Of a stretch of DNA of 34,015 nt, positions 13,556 through 34,015 are shown in pieces. Origin of the DNA: Chthoniobacterales bacterium (GTDB lineage: Bacteria; Verrucomicrobiota; Verrucomicrobiia; Chthoniobacterales; UBA10450); assembly GCA_013821455.1 (NCBI GenBank), contig JACDGS010000043.1, positions 1 through 34,015 of the forward strand. The letters are read 5' to 3'. The translations under genes were made by a program, and so were the position numbers. Position 1 is the first letter of the stretch; the number at the start of each line of letters is the position of its first letter. The notes under the pieces were generated by a model, which saw only the letters and a program-made list of their open reading frames with translations, made no database searches and was not told where the DNA came from.

Positions 13556-13651
13556 TTGTCATCTCGAGCGAAGCGAGGGACCCCGCCAGGAATCAAGGAA
13601 GTGCACACCAAACTTAGCTTGTGAGGTCCCTCGCTCCGCTCGGGATGACAA
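13556..13651. repeat. Intergenic inverted repeat of the GTCATCCCGAGCGGAGCGAGG family, copy A
   Basis: The left arm (TTGTCATCTCGAGCGAAGCG, then AGGGACCCC) and right arm (GGTCCCTCGCTCCGCTCG, then GGATGACAA) are imperfect complements flanking a non-conserved loop. Related copies lie at 20801-20901, 24997-25130 and 31005-31119. All are in intergenic DNA. Here it separates the convergent FtsB-like and MsrA-like genes and may serve as a bidirectional terminator. Confidence 0.85.
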
Positions 13652-24226: not shown

Positions 24227-24970
24227 ATGCTCGATTCCGACGATTTGAAATGGACCGCGTCCAATTTGATCGCGCTGCATCGCCGCTTGCAGGAAGTGTC
24301 GCGTTTATCCGCGCAAGCCGGTCAGGCGCACGGTGTGGGCGAAGACCTGCGCCTGCTGGATAAAGAAGTCGAGCAGGCGAGGAAAACTGCACAGGCTCTG
24401 CTCGATCGCATTACTTCGCGCCTGCTCGCGGGCACGCGAAGAATCGATACCGCTCCGGGAACGCCGCCGATCTTCAGAGTGATGCCGCCGGCATCGTTAG
24501 GCTCCACACCCGTCGCTGGCGTCGAGGCCCGGATTCCAGTGGGCGAGTTGGCGCTCGCGGCCGTCCCCGACGGAGGCATCGTCATTCGGAATCCGGAGGG
24601 CAGAGGCAAGCTGGTTTTAGTGGTCGATGACGAGCCAGAAATTTTGGAGCGAGCGGGCCTGATGCTGGAAGAGGAAGGTTTTCGCATCATTCTGGCGAAA
24701 GACGGTTTTGAAGCGCTCCAGATTTACGGACAACTTTCCGATAAGATTTCCCTGATCATTCTGGATTTCTTTTTGCCGGTGATGGATGGCGACGCGGTGT
24801 TCGACGAGCTCAAAGCGATCAATCCCAACGTGCAGGTCGTGCTCAGCAGCGGGTTTGCCGAGCAGACGAAGTTGGGCAGCATGCTCGCGCGCGGTTTGTG
24901 CGGCTTCATTCCGAAGCCCTACACGAGCGAGAAATTGATTGATCAGGTGCGCTCGATCATCGCCGCCTAA
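24227..24970 (+). CDS. Response regulator with N-terminal helical region and C-terminal receiver domain
   Basis: A 247-residue protein. Residues 1-70 are helical and coiled-coil-like (LIALHRRLQEVSRLSAQAGQ, then a Lys/Glu/Gln-rich helix). Residues 75-125 are a linker. Residues ~127-247 are a CheY-like receiver with acidic pair Asp134-Asp135 (LVVDDEPE), phospho-acceptor Asp180 (IILDFFLPVMDG), Ser in VVLSSGF and Lys230 (FIPKPYT). No DNA-binding or output domain follows, so it probably acts by protein contact; the helical N-terminus resembles part of a histidine kinase dimerisation region. The stop TAA is formed by the octamer at 24966. It lies just upstream of pilT, suggesting a link to pilus motility. 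Confidence 0.82.
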   Translation: MLDSDDLKWTASNLIALHRRLQEVSRLSAQAGQAHGVGEDLRLLDKEVEQARKTAQALLDRITSRLLAGTRRIDTAPGTPPIFRVMPPASLGSTPVAGVEARIPVGELALAAVPDGGIVIRNPEGRGKLVLVVDDEPEILERAGLMLEEEGFRIILAKDGFEALQIYGQLSDKISLIILDFFLPVMDGDAVFDELKAINPNVQVVLSSGFAEQTKLGSMLARGLCGFIPKPYTSEKLIDQVRSIIAA

Positions 24971-24996
24971 CGACGACGAAACTTCGGAAGCCGGGT

Positions 24997-25130
24997 TGTC
25001 ATCCCGAGCGGAGCGCAGCGAAGTCGAGGGATCCCGTAGGGCTTTCCGGAAGATCTCGCACACCCGTCTTTTTGCCTAACGACTCGTCCTCGTCCTTCCG
25101 CGGGATCCTTCGGCTCCGCTCAGGATGACA
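24997..25130. repeat. Intergenic inverted repeat of the GTCATCCCGAGCGGAGCGAGG family, copy C
   Basis: The left arm is TGTCATCCCGAGCGGAGCGC followed by AGCGAAGTCGAGGGATCCCG. The right arm is CGGGATCCTTCGGCTCCGCT followed by CAGGATGACA. Its loop contains an exact copy of the dispersed octamer (25075-25082). It lies in the 240-base gap between the response regulator and pilT. Confidence 0.85.
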
Positions 25131-25210
25131 GAGCAGAAGGCTTCCGCGCCGCTCCCGCAAAGTTAACTCACCCTGCTGGCATCCTTTTAGCTACTCCGGG
25201 AAGCGAATTT

Positions 25211-26293
25211 ATGGCCCGGATCGACGCTTTTTTTAAATTGATGGCCGAGGAGAGAGCTTCCGACCTTCACCTTGCGACTAACAATCCGCCGATGCTCCGC
25301 ATCAACGGCGATCTCGTGCGCGTCGATTATCCGCCGCTGCAAAACGACGATCTCAAGGCCATGGTTTATGAGATTGCGCCGGAAGCGAAAATCAAAGTCT
25401 TCGAGGAAACATCGGACGTCGATTTCGGCTACGAAGTGCCGGGCGTCGCGCGCTATCGCGCGAATTTCTTCCTGCAAAAATACGGCATCTCCGCCGTCTT
25501 CCGTTTGATTCCGTCGAAGATTCTCACGGTCGAAGATCTCGGTCTTCCACCGGTGCTAAAGAAATTCCCGCTGTTGAAGAAGGGATTGATTCTCGTCACC
25601 GGCCCGACCGGTTCCGGTAAATCGACCACGCTCGCGGCAATGATAGATTACGCGAACCTGCAACGCCACGATCACATCATCACGGTGGAAGATCCGATCG
25701 AGTTCGTGCACCGCAGCCAAAATTGTCTCGTGCAGCATCGCGAAGTCGGGGTGCACACGCGCTCGTTTAGCGCGGCTTTGCGCGGCGCGTTGCGCGAAGA
25801 TCCGGACGTCCTGCTTGTCGGTGAACTGCGCGATCACGAGACGATCGAGCTCGCGCTCACTGCGGCTGCGACCGGCCACTTGGTTTTCGGAACGCTCCAT
25901 ACTTCCAGCGCGGCGAAAGCCGTCGATCGCGTGATCGATGTTTTCCCGAGCGGCCAGCAAAACCAGATCCGCGCCACGCTCTCGGAATCGCTCAAAGGCG
26001 TGATTGCGCAGAATCTTTTCAAGCGCATCGACAAGCCCGGCCGCGTCGCCGCGCTCGAGATCCTGGTCGTCGATATCGCGATCGCAAATCTCGTTAGGGA
26101 AGCGAAGACGCATCAAATCCCGGGCATGATTCAGGTCGGAAAAAAGAAGGGCAACCAACCGCTCGACGACGCGATCATGGATCATCTTCGCAACCTCCGC
26201 ATTTCGCCCGAGGAGGCCTACGACAAGTGCATCGACAAAAAGAAATTCCGTCCCTTCCTCAAGACCCCGCCCGCGGAAGAATTTGAAGAATAA
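25211..26293 (+). CDS. pilT: Type IV pilus retraction ATPase PilT
   Basis: A 360-residue secretion-superfamily ATPase. Its N-terminal PAS-like domain begins ARIDAFFKLMAEERASDLHL, the classic PilT opening. Walker A GPTGSGKST starts at residue 131. The Asp box HHIITVEDPIEFVH-like segment (here HDHIITVEDPIEFVH), Walker B VLLVGELRD and the His box GHLVFGTLHTSSA follow in order. It powers pilus retraction for twitching, adhesion and DNA uptake at the inner membrane. ATG at 25211 is preceded by a GGGAAG ribosome-binding-like sequence. The octamer at 26091 encodes Val-Arg. It leads an operon with the next two genes. Confidence 0.93.
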   Translation: MARIDAFFKLMAEERASDLHLATNNPPMLRINGDLVRVDYPPLQNDDLKAMVYEIAPEAKIKVFEETSDVDFGYEVPGVARYRANFFLQKYGISAVFRLIPSKILTVEDLGLPPVLKKFPLLKKGLILVTGPTGSGKSTTLAAMIDYANLQRHDHIITVEDPIEFVHRSQNCLVQHREVGVHTRSFSAALRGALREDPDVLLVGELRDHETIELALTAAATGHLVFGTLHTSSAAKAVDRVIDVFPSGQQNQIRATLSESLKGVIAQNLFKRIDKPGRVAALEILVVDIAIANLVREAKTHQIPGMIQVGKKKGNQPLDDAIMDHLRNLRISPEEAYDKCIDKKKFRPFLKTPPAEEFEE

Positions 26294-26305
26294 CGGCCTA
26301 ACGAG

Positions 26306-27484
26306 ATGAGAGCGCCCGATCTCGACCGGATTTTGTCGGCGATGCTCAACACCTACGACGGCGTTTCCGATCTTAACTTCTCCGTTGGTCGTCCCCTCCA
26401 GGTGGAGGATTTCGGGGAACTCAAACCGGTCTTCGTCGATCCGCCGATCGATGCGCTGACGCCTTTTCAGACCGAGCAGATCGCGCTCGCGCTGATGCAG
26501 GGGAATCGCCGCCTCATGCGCGATTACCTTCTCGTTGGCTCCTGCGATTGCAGTTACGCGCTCTGCGACGAAGCGCGCTTTCGGGTAAACATTTTCCGGC
26601 AGCAAGGGCAATTCGCGATCGTGATGCGGAAGCTGCAGGCCATCGTCCCGACACTCGAATCGCTCGTGCTGCCCAGCGTTTTCAGCGAAATAGCGAAGGA
26701 AAAAAACGGACTCGTTCTCGTTACCGGCGCCACCGGCAGCGGCAAGACGACGACGCTCGCGGCGATCCTGAATGAGATAAACGATACGCAGTCGGTCCAT
26801 ATCGTGACGCTGGAGGATCCGATCGAATTCGTGCATCCGTTAGGCCGCGCCACTTTTAATCAACGCGAGCTCGGCCACGACTTCGACAATTACCCTAACG
26901 GATTGCGCGCCGCGCTCCGGCAGGCGCCGAAAGTAATTTTCGTCGGCGAAATGCGCGATCGCGCGACGGTGGAGGTCGCGCTCATGGCGGCGGAAACCGG
27001 CCATCTTGTTCTGAGCACGCTGCACACGGTTGATGCCGGCCAGGCGATCAATCGCATCCTCGGTCTCTTCTCGTTAGGCGAAGAACAGCAGTTGCGTCTG
27101 CGGCTGGCCGATTCCGTGCGTTACGTCGTGAGCCAGCGTCTCGCGCCCAAGGTCGGCGGCGGCCGCCAGTTGCTCACCGAAATCATGGGCAACAATCTGC
27201 GCACGCGCGAATCGATCGCGCTCGGAGAAGGGGAGCATCGCAGCTTCTACGAGATCATCGAGGCGAGCGCGACGTTCGGCTGGATCACCTTCGATCAGTC
27301 GATTCTTTTGGCATACGAAGCCGGCGCGATCAGCGAAGAAACCGCGCATCGTTTCGCCTCCAAGAAAGGCCGTGTCACTCGCGGCATCGATCTCTTACAA
27401 AAAATGCGCGGCGTCGAGGAGGACCGTGACATCGGTTTGCGGCTCGATCGTCCCAGCGCCGATCTGCTGCGCCAGAAAGCATGA
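26306..27484 (+). CDS. Second PilT-family ATPase (PilT2/PilU-like)
   Basis: A 392-residue paralogue of the preceding gene. Walker A GATGSGKTTT starts at residue 141. The Asp box HIVTLEDPIEFVH, Walker B VIFVGEMRD and His box GHLVLSTLHTVDAG are complete, so it should be an active ATPase. The N-terminus is more diverged than PilT (YDGVSDLNFSVGRPLQVEDF) and the C-terminus has a distinct extension. It starts 12 bases after pilT; its ATG (26306) comes one base after an octamer, with no separate Shine-Dalgarno sequence. An octamer at 27071 encodes Ser-Leu-Gly. PilU-type partners assist PilT retraction. Confidence 0.88.
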   Translation: MRAPDLDRILSAMLNTYDGVSDLNFSVGRPLQVEDFGELKPVFVDPPIDALTPFQTEQIALALMQGNRRLMRDYLLVGSCDCSYALCDEARFRVNIFRQQGQFAIVMRKLQAIVPTLESLVLPSVFSEIAKEKNGLVLVTGATGSGKTTTLAAILNEINDTQSVHIVTLEDPIEFVHPLGRATFNQRELGHDFDNYPNGLRAALRQAPKVIFVGEMRDRATVEVALMAAETGHLVLSTLHTVDAGQAINRILGLFSLGEEQQLRLRLADSVRYVVSQRLAPKVGGGRQLLTEIMGNNLRTRESIALGEGEHRSFYEIIEASATFGWITFDQSILLAYEAGAISEETAHRFASKKGRVTRGIDLLQKMRGVEEDRDIGLRLDRPSADLLRQKA

Positions 27485-27948
27485 ACCTCGAACCCGACCA
27501 TCACGTCTTCGATCTCGGCGACCAGACTGCGCTCGTGTGCGTGCCCGCTTCGCCTTGTCAGAAATCGATCGCCGCGCAGTTAGTCGCGCTCGATTACAAA
27601 GTGCACCTTGGTCTCTTTGAAGAAGACGTGCTCCTCAAGCTCGCGACCTGCAATTACAACGTCGTCATCATCGACGAAAATTTTAAGGAAGCCGGCGCGG
27701 ACGAAAATGTCATCCTGCGCGAAATGGTAAAGAGTTCGGGCGCGTTGCGGCGCGAGCATTTCGTCGTGCTGCTGAGCCAGCGCTTCGCCACGAACGATGC
27801 CACGAGCGCCTTCGTCATGAGCGTGGACCAGATCATCAACTTCGGCGATCTCGCGAATTTCAAACCGGTCCTCCGGCGCGGTGTCGCGATGCATCAGGAT
27901 CTCTACCGGCCGTTTCTCGAGACGATCAAAGTCGTCCAGGCTCTTTAG
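27481..27948 (+). CDS. Degenerate receiver-like protein in the pilT operon
   Basis: A 155-residue protein overlapping the upstream ATPase gene by ATGA, so translationally coupled. The alternating hydrophobic strands (TALVCVPASP, VHLGLFEED, YNVVIIDENF, HFVVLLSQRF, DQIINFGDL) follow the CheY receiver fold. The acidic pair expected at strand 1 is replaced (VCVPAS), and an Asp sits only at the strand-3 position (IIDEN), so it is probably a pseudo-receiver. It may regulate the two retraction ATPases by protein contact. Family assignment is by fold pattern only. Confidence 0.65.
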   Translation: MNLEPDHHVFDLGDQTALVCVPASPCQKSIAAQLVALDYKVHLGLFEEDVLLKLATCNYNVVIIDENFKEAGADENVILREMVKSSGALRREHFVVLLSQRFATNDATSAFVMSVDQIINFGDLANFKPVLRRGVAMHQDLYRPFLETIKVVQAL

Positions 27949-28052: not shown

Positions 28053-28577
28053 ATGAAGCCTGTTCGCTGGTTACGTTTCAATTGGGATTTGGAGAGGCTT
28101 CCCGCGAGCGAAATCGCGCTGCCGGCGCATTATCATTTCGGCTCGGCGACGGCGGCGGATGAAAACGAATTGCGCACTGTGATCACGCGTTCGTTCGCGC
28201 ACGACACCTCGTGGGGTGACGCGATTCACGAGGTCAACGGCATGATCGACGCGTGGCTCGGAAAGGCCTTCGAGCCGGAAGGCGCGGCCGTTCGTTGCCT
28301 CGCCTTGCGGCACGGCTTGCGCATTATCGGCGCGGCGGTTTTGAATCCGGACAGCCTCGTTGAGGATAACCTTTCGCCCGGCCCGTGCGTGCTCATGGAA
28401 TATCGCAACCGCGGCCTGGGCACGGCGCTCCTGGGGGAATCGCTCGGTCAACTGCGCGAGGGCGGACTTACCCGCGCCAGTGCGCGCGCGAAAAAAGATT
28501 CGCCGGTAGCGAAATTTCTCTACCCGAAATTCAACGGCACCCCGACGCCGGACGACACCTCGCTGATCGCGGTCTAG
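28053..28577 (+). CDS. GNAT-family N-acetyltransferase
   Basis: A 174-residue protein. The acetyl-CoA-binding motif A appears as MEYRNRGLGTALLGESLGQL (R/Q-x-x-G-x-G/A pattern), preceded by a strand LRIIGAAVLNPDSLVED and followed by a helix and LTRASARAKKDSPVAKFLYP. The N-terminal half (ENELRTVITRSFAHDTSW) matches the usual first helices. The substrate is unknown. ATG at 28053. An octamer begins immediately after the TAG stop (28578). Confidence 0.75.
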   Translation: MKPVRWLRFNWDLERLPASEIALPAHYHFGSATAADENELRTVITRSFAHDTSWGDAIHEVNGMIDAWLGKAFEPEGAAVRCLALRHGLRIIGAAVLNPDSLVEDNLSPGPCVLMEYRNRGLGTALLGESLGQLREGGLTRASARAKKDSPVAKFLYPKFNGTPTPDDTSLIAV

Positions 28578-32842: not shown

Positions 32843-34015
32843 ATGCAACAAACCGCAACTGAGGGCCGAATTGAGAGGGAAAACCTGCGAAACCCTTTCT
32901 CGCGGTTGTTGCGCTTTAACGCTCTTCTAGTTTTCGTCCTGGGCGCGGCGTTCGCCGGGGAGGCACCGGCCGTGTCCGTGCCGTATGGAGTTTTTTCTAT
33001 TTCTAGCCCGGGCAAAAACCCAACTCAGAACGCCCTCGCCAATGCCAATGTCGATGGCATCACCATCGCGCAGACTTGGAACGATCTGGAGCCGAACGAA
33101 GGCGAATATCATTTCGAGTTTCTCGACGGCGCCATCGCCATGTGCGCCGCGCATAACAAGAAAGTACTCCTGTGCATCGGCATGCAGAATGGCAAGCCCG
33201 CCTGGGTGAATACATCTGTGACTCTGGCCGGAGGCAGCTTTTTCACTTTCCTGAATGACGGCGTGCCTACCACCATCCCGGTCTTTTGGGATCCGACCTT
33301 CTTGAATAAGAAGACCGCGATGATCGCGGCGCTTGGCGCGCACTTGACGAATAACTCGAACATCGTTGTCGTGGTGGCGAGTTTCGCCAATGCGACGAGC
33401 GAAGATTGGAATGTGCCGCACGCCCAGACGGATATCGCGCAGTGGCTCACGCTCGGTTATACCTCGGATAAGCTCGTCGCCGCCGGGCAGCGCATCATCG
33501 ACGCGACCATGGCGGCTTTCCCGAACCAGATCGTGACTCTCGCGGTGAGTGGGAACGGTCATCTCGGCGGCGGTCTGAACCTCGATCCTACGAGCGACTA
33601 TGTCCCGCGCACAGTGGTCGGCCTCGAGCGCGCCCTATGGCCAGGGAGGCTCAACATCCAGAAGAACGACCTCTCCACCTTCATCCCGCCCGCGCCGGGG
33701 ACTGACTCACTCTATCAGATGATCTAGGACTTCCAGCCGGACGTTGCCAAGCAGATGCTTTACCAATGTTTCAATGACCCTACCTATAAGGTCAACAACG
33801 GCGTGCCACAGGACCCGGCGACATCTCTTAAGATATCGATCGATAACGGGGTGACTTATCACGAGAAGTACGTCGAGATCTACCAGACCGACGTAAACAC
33901 TCTGCCGGATACGATCGCGTACGCCCACACGGTTCTTACCGCTACACCTACACCTACACCTACACCTACACCTACACCTACACCTACACCTACACCTACA
34001 CCTACACCTACACCT
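32843..34015 (+). CDS. Secreted TIM-barrel glycoside hydrolase-like protein, interrupted by TAG and running off the window
   Basis: From ATG 32843 the first 294 codons encode a signal peptide (LLRFNALLVFVLGAAFAGEA) and a TIM-barrel-like region: VDGITIAQTWNDLEPNEGEY, FLDGAIAMCAAHNKKVLLCI, and ASFANATSEDWNVPHAQ with a candidate acidic residue. This resembles GH42-like or related beta-glycosidase barrels; the exact family is unclear. TAG at 33725-33727 interrupts the protein, but the same frame continues for all 96 remaining codons with consistent protein (DFQPDVAKQMLYQC, KYVEIYQTDVNTLPDTIAYA), ending in a Thr-Pro linker. A longer open frame upstream of 32843 overlaps the transporter gene and is not credible. 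Confidence 0.6.
33942..34015 (+). repeat. Tandem CTACAC hexamer repeat encoding a Thr-Pro linker
   Basis: About 12 perfect copies of a 6-base unit run to the window edge. In the frame of the preceding gene it reads Thr-Pro-Thr-Pro, a typical linker between a catalytic and a binding or sorting domain in secreted enzymes. Copy-number change would keep the frame. The true length is cut by the window end. Confidence 0.9.

Follow-up and report, generated by a model that had tools for sequence, protein, structure and literature searches.

A four-gene type IV pilus retraction cluster with a putative pseudo-receiver, and two dispersed words resembling DNA uptake sequences, in a family of Chthoniobacterales

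In a Chthoniobacterales bacterium from soil, four same-strand genes (24227-27948, + strand) code for a response regulator (RR), the retraction ATPase PilT, a second PilT/PilU-family ATPase and a 155-aa protein (P155). They lie on DNA that carries one 9-bp word, GCCTAACGA (word A), far more often than expected. The locus raises the question of whether the four genes make up one retraction module, and whether the pilus so driven takes up DNA bearing the word. An earlier note, made from the letters of this DNA, had proposed both that receiver proteins tune retraction and that the pilus reads the word. We analysed the whole stretch of 34,015 nucleotides (the window, contig C76 of a 4.30-Mb draft genome) against the rest of the genome and its relatives. 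The features are collected in the table.

Table. Features of the retraction cluster and copies of word A within it
Feature	Position	Strand	Details
Response regulator (RR)	24227..24970	+	247 aa; Pfam Response_reg 3.5e-19; ortholog alignment; 5' of pilT in 9/9 family stretches
REP-like palindromic repeat	24997..25130	.	inverted repeat between RR gene and pilT; 18-bp arms TGTCATCCCGAGCGGAGC / GCTCCGCTCAGGATGACA
PilT retraction ATPase	25211..26293	+	360 aa; TIGR01420 442 bits; motifs; PDB matches
Second complete PilT/PilU-family ATPase (PilU by position)	26306..27484	+	392 aa; TIGR01420 343 bits; motifs; PDB matches
P155, putative degenerate receiver (pseudo-receiver), partner gene of second ATPase	27481..27948	+	155 aa; 30 family orthologs; linkage; hhalign
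GCCTAACGA word within RR gene	24494..24502	-	
GCCTAACGA word spanning RR gene stop codon	24965..24973	+	
GCCTAACGA word, RR-pilT intergenic region	25074..25082	+	
GCCTAACGA word, gap pilT / second ATPase	26296..26304	+	
GCCTAACGA word within second ATPase gene	27071..27079	-	

Both ATPases scored above the curated TIGR01420 cut-off of 319.1 bits, PilT with 442.3 and the second ATPase with 343.2 bits. Performing a motif scan, we found Walker A, the Asp box EDPIE, Walker B, the His box and an AIRNLIRE-like motif in PilT. The same scan found Walker A (GATGSGKT), the EDPIE Asp box and the His box in the second ATPase; its Walker B, FVGEMRD, was read from the translation, as the scan pattern was too strict. 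The AIRNLIRE motif, though present in the neighbouring PilT, was not found in the second ATPase by the scan. In a PDB sequence search, the top matches of PilT (360 aa) were PilT structures (3jvu, 375 bits). For the second ATPase, PilT chains scored 254 bits and the PilU chain 9n32 lower, at 202 bits; an assignment as PilU proper was not reached. The locus has in common with the PilT/PilU motors of Gram-negative type IVa pili (Pseudomonas, Vibrio, Acinetobacter) the adjacent pilT and pilU-type genes, the complete ATPase motifs and the TIGR01420 membership. It differs from them in that an RR gene lies 5' and a probable degenerate receiver gene 3', and in that the PDB search placed PilT chains nearer to the second ATPase than the PilU chain.

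The receiver domain of RR covers residues 130-241 (Response_reg, 3.5e-19), and the N-terminal ~125 aa are without a Pfam assignment. Aligning the orthologs, we found the acidic pair, the phosphoacceptor Asp and the Lys all kept, as in a receiver proper. The stand-alone receiver protein, pilT and the second complete PilT-family ATPase of the earlier note were thus confirmed. The note had also described P155 as translationally coupled. In the source genome, the ATG of P155 and the stop codon of the second ATPase lie in a 4-bp overlap of the two genes, but most relatives have a gap of ~20-50 bp, so the overlap is not general. The palindrome between RR and pilT gave an RNA fold z of -3.85, and its arm sequence TCATCCCGAGCG has 50 copies in 621 kb of the source genome. 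Single arms of this REP-like repeat (TGTCATCCCGAGCG...) lie in the window near 13637, 20803, 20888 and 31007, the RR/pilT gap holding one full palindrome.

We checked whether the genes stay together in relatives, and the grouping held. The order RR-PilT-ATPase-P155 was unbroken in all nine family stretches checked, which come from seven genera, and an acetyltransferase gene usually came next after P155. P155 itself was present in 44 of 83 family genomes and 13 of 14 genera; none of the 35 genomes in genus g163 has it. Also missing from this genus are the two ATPases close to the second ATPase (the type of the window and that of contig C61, described below), which leaves it with only a distant tandem PilT pair. 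A profile search across the class returned P155 in 45 of 335 genomes (31 of 152 genera). At 20 loci outside the family, P155 directly followed the ATPase in 19, the exception being L133, where the contig ends at P155; PilT preceded the ATPase in 18, and RR was recognisable in about five. This linkage marks PilT, the second ATPase and P155 as a unit that is old and shared across the class, with RR as a looser member. Most family loci retain the acetyltransferase gene found 3' of P155 in the window (GNAT, 28053-28577), and a GNAT gene also follows P155 in some non-family loci (L125, L134, L135, L138).

Word A occurs 4,605 times in the 4.3-Mb genome, 2,306 times on one strand and 2,299 on the other, while the reversed control occurs 62 times. 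The window has 45 copies against ~0.2 expected. Counts are genome-wide, and location statistics come from 621 kb (14% of the genome). In this sample, word A was the commonest 9-mer with 722 copies, the next unrelated word having 157. Its density was 0.96/kb in genes and 1.69/kb between genes, and within genes every frame that does not create a stop codon was occupied. Variants differed mainly at positions 1, 2, 8 and 9, the inner CTAAC being nearly fixed. The flanks showed a few weakly preferred bases and beyond these no conservation; word A is therefore not a mobile repeat. At orthologous sites in other species of the genus, 16 of 22, 11 of 15 and 7 of 9 copies were kept, and 5 of 8 in g161, compared with 10-15% of random 9-mers in the control. 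The bases of the word were more conserved there than its flanks. Chi and KOPS are strand-biased in other bacteria; word A showed no strand bias by contig (chi-square P = 0.39), and a signal of their type was judged unlikely.

The earlier note had placed abundant uptake-like motifs beside the cluster. Their abundance stands, but their placement does not. From the genome mean, 4.0 copies would be expected in the four-gene cluster, where five were found, and 36.4 in the window, where the 45 copies are no significant excess (P = 0.09). We therefore reject a gathering of words beside the cluster; they are spread genome-wide.

Among 288 genomes of the phylum, word A reached thousands of copies in two only, both of the family, and at most 133 copies in 285 others. 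Within the family, g161 and those four g1 genomes that the tree includes had 440-1,070 copies of it per Mb; most of the remaining genomes had roughly 20-130. Performing an unbiased k-mer scan, we found a second word, TGTCGATCTT (word B), first in genomes G013 and G166. It is unrelated to word A and enriched in g2, g3, g153, g154, g155 and g162, and weakly in g163; word A thus marks the genus of the window, and word B a clade sister to it. Its maximum of 4,941 nine-mer copies was in G166, which carries both words (word A, 1,802 copies). In a tree of the second ATPase (PilU) plus P155, the sampled word-B genera formed one clade (support 95) nested within the word-A genera, and a ComEC tree placed g163 inside the word-B clade (support 100). 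In family f1 (loci L043-L045 and L040-L042), word B has an extended preference, G....WTGTCGATCTT. The scan also returned a local repeat, GTCGAACGTC, in g159, which was set aside.

The median word-B density was 112 copies per Mb in the 35 genomes of g163, compared with 467 in the cluster-bearing members of the clade (Mann-Whitney P = 2e-5). Cluster loss in g163 is one evolutionary event, so this correlation does not count as many-fold independent evidence, and the loss of the module alongside word decay is suggestive only. Two g155 genomes (G293, G294) keep the cluster and have word-B densities similar to those of g163, and g156, also with the cluster, has few words. At the 20 non-family loci (358 kb), word A was absent, and there was no other word of comparable strength save a local tandem array. 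This 21-bp array, in L131, had first resembled a dispersed word and was rejected as such.

Does the pilus of this module take up the words? The case for it is circumstantial. The source genome encodes a full-length ComEC, which is present in 76 of 83 family genomes, 18 N-methyl pilin candidates and a PilB-PilB-PilC-pilin locus; a ComEA search there returned only helix-hairpin-helix matches below the family cut-off. It also has at least five PilT/PilU-type ATPases spread over three loci, so another pair could serve uptake. One of these loci (L032, G000:C61, 10166-11956) has a PilU-like ATPase 58% identical to the second ATPase of the window and, directly beside it, another receiver protein (206 aa), so that an ATPase and a receiver are paired there too. 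Another (L033, G000:C87, 4110-6457) has tandem PilT-like ATPases, ~48% identical to PilT and kept in g163 too, with a holin-like protein and a DUF883 protein among their neighbours.

The alternative that survives best is that the cluster serves twitching or attachment retraction only, while the words belong to transformation with other motors (C61 or C87), their co-location being chance. The class-wide presence of the cluster without words, which means that the cluster does not imply uptake words, fits this, as do the genome-mean word density at the cluster and the three PilT/PilU loci. In Acinetobacter baumannii, PilT is needed for transformation, and PilU is dispensable for it and chiefly serves high-force motility (PMC8088505). 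Because of this dispensability, the second ATPase and P155 may by analogy serve high-force retraction rather than uptake. On the other side, g163, which lacks the module and the C61-type ATPase and retains ComEC and the distant tandem PilT pair, has a four-fold lower density of words; moreover, PilT usually serves as the uptake motor as well (PMC8088505). We regard a cluster limited to twitching or attachment as unlikely, if the most serious of the alternatives. That the pilus reads the motif, as the earlier note had it, is in line with the fewer words of g163, but sits poorly with a class-wide cluster beside family-restricted words and with the few words of g156.

We also compared the words with known uptake sequences. 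Word A is short and non-palindromic and occurs about once per kb on both strands, in genic and intergenic DNA; the words are conserved within the lineage and form dialects that follow phylogeny. Uptake sequences are further defined by raising DNA binding and uptake in transformation and by a cognate minor-pilin receptor (ComP, with PpdA/ComN proposed). On these sequence features, words A and B are most likely DNA uptake sequences, and the uptake-like nature that the earlier note saw in the motif is upheld by the counts, the orthologous conservation, the family restriction and the dialects. The uptake sequences (DUS) of Neisseriaceae likewise occur ~1 per kb, non-palindromic and on both strands; their dialects track the phylogeny, and Simonsiella muelleri carries two in one genome (PMC3630211). 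They are 10-12-mers with a CTG core, whereas words A and B are related neither to DUS nor to one another, belong to a host of the phylum Verrucomicrobiota and are known here from sequence. With the uptake sequences (USS) of Pasteurellaceae, the words share a 9-mer core, a fixed inner core and a weak flanking preference (PMC12616744, PMC1626085); the USS read AAGTGCGGT / ACAAGCGGT and the words here GCCTAACGA / TGTCGATCTT. According to a 2025 paper, uptake words are confined to two families, Neisseriaceae and Pasteurellaceae (PMC12616744), and we found no uptake sequences for Verrucomicrobia in the open-access literature.

The words might instead be kept by another sequence-specific process, such as orphan methylation, a recombination hotspot, chromosome segregation or nucleoid protein sites. 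Any process favouring a 9-mer could yield high counts and orthologous conservation, and there is a precedent in HIP1, a cyanobacterial octamer that is abundant and not known as an uptake sequence (PMC4390886). Word A is not palindromic, unlike HIP1. It lacks the strand bias by contig (P = 0.39) of Chi/KOPS, and the two unrelated words replace each other along the tree, as uptake dialects do. We consider such a process unlikely, somewhat less likely still than a cluster limited to twitching or attachment.

We then return to P155, which the earlier note had described as a receiver-fold protein without the acidic pair. It belongs to no Pfam or NCBIfam family, had no match in a PDB sequence search, and a narrow-profile hhalign comparison with receivers gave no match. 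We built a diverse P155 profile by adding 20 distant homologs and aligned it with a profile of 26 diverse receivers. The hhalign probability was 90.7-93.2% with a score of 41-44, and the alignment was in register from strand 1 through strand 4. Ten column-shuffled receiver profiles scored at most 15.6 against P155. Single P155 members matched the receiver profile with E about 0.001 in a search of 50 sequences, and the D/D/K pattern of acidic pair, phospho-Asp and Lys was not conserved in 50 homologs. The AlphaFold model was poor (pLDDT 35.5 from an input of two sequences only), and the receiver reading is therefore based on profiles. The fold proposed for P155 thus agreed with the profile match (91-93%), and the missing acidic pair was confirmed, while the model lent no support. 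Neither outcome that the earlier note named as refuting it came true: the cluster is conserved, and by profile P155 looks like a receiver. By these profiles, P155 is best read as a pseudo-receiver, a receiver fold without the phosphorylation site. That it is an unrelated small alpha/beta protein, matched through general strand/helix alternation, would suit the empty family, PDB and narrow-profile searches and the poor model, but is improbable given the in-register match, the low shuffled controls and the E values of single members.

As a pseudo-receiver strictly linked to the second ATPase, P155 is most likely a phosphorylation-independent adaptor on that motor, and we infer that RR and P155 tune retraction. 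FrzS-type pseudo-receivers and PilG/PilH steer type IV pili with or without phosphorylation. P155 would share with FrzS (Myxococcus) and with the Pil-Chp receivers PilG/PilH (Pseudomonas) that a receiver-fold protein acts on type IV pili; it differs in being stand-alone, 155 aa long and genetically tied to a second retraction ATPase class-wide.

Our explanation as a whole, a four-gene type IV pilus retraction module and, separately, family words that are DNA uptake sequences, we consider probable without holding it firmly. The gene order, its conservation, the intact and degenerate active sites and the profile match to receivers are what we observed of the module. In its proposed working, PilT and the second PilT/PilU-family motor would power retraction, the upstream RR would be the phosphorylatable input, and P155, having lost its phosphorylation site, would dock on the second motor as the phosphorylation-independent adaptor and take part in regulation. 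Of the words, we observed the number, the dispersal over both strands, the orthologous conservation, the family restriction and the dialect-like replacement along the tree, and ComEC, pilins, PilB and PilC are present. In uptake, a pilus-tip pilin would bind the word on free DNA, PilT-driven retraction, putatively by this module, would draw the word-bearing DNA in, ComEC would pass it through the inner membrane, and recombination would maintain the words in the genome.

A bolder claim, held tentatively and with slightly less than even confidence, is that this family is a third lineage, outside Proteobacteria, with self-recognition uptake words, at least two of them, unrelated and mutually replacing within one family. 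A type IV pilus with a pseudo-receiver-controlled second motor would pull these words in, and they would decay on loss of the module. If true, this would be an independent case for testing why uptake words arise, whether by mate choice, uptake bias/drive or receptor constraint. Within a single Verrucomicrobiota family it would combine two unrelated words, a genome that carries the pair and a clade in which words are fading. A PilU-linked pseudo-receiver, kept class-wide, would be a new handle on the regulation of retraction force. On its own the cluster would deserve modest interest; combined with the words and their dialects, it deserves high interest.

Two minor observations remain. A perfect (CTACAC)12 array at 33942-34015 of the window reaches the contig end and is perhaps an assembly break. 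In g156 and G306 (L047-L048, L079-L084), words of the GTACTCA/CTGAGTACG type occurred 14 times in 101 kb against 1.0 expected, and are perhaps a third, faint word.
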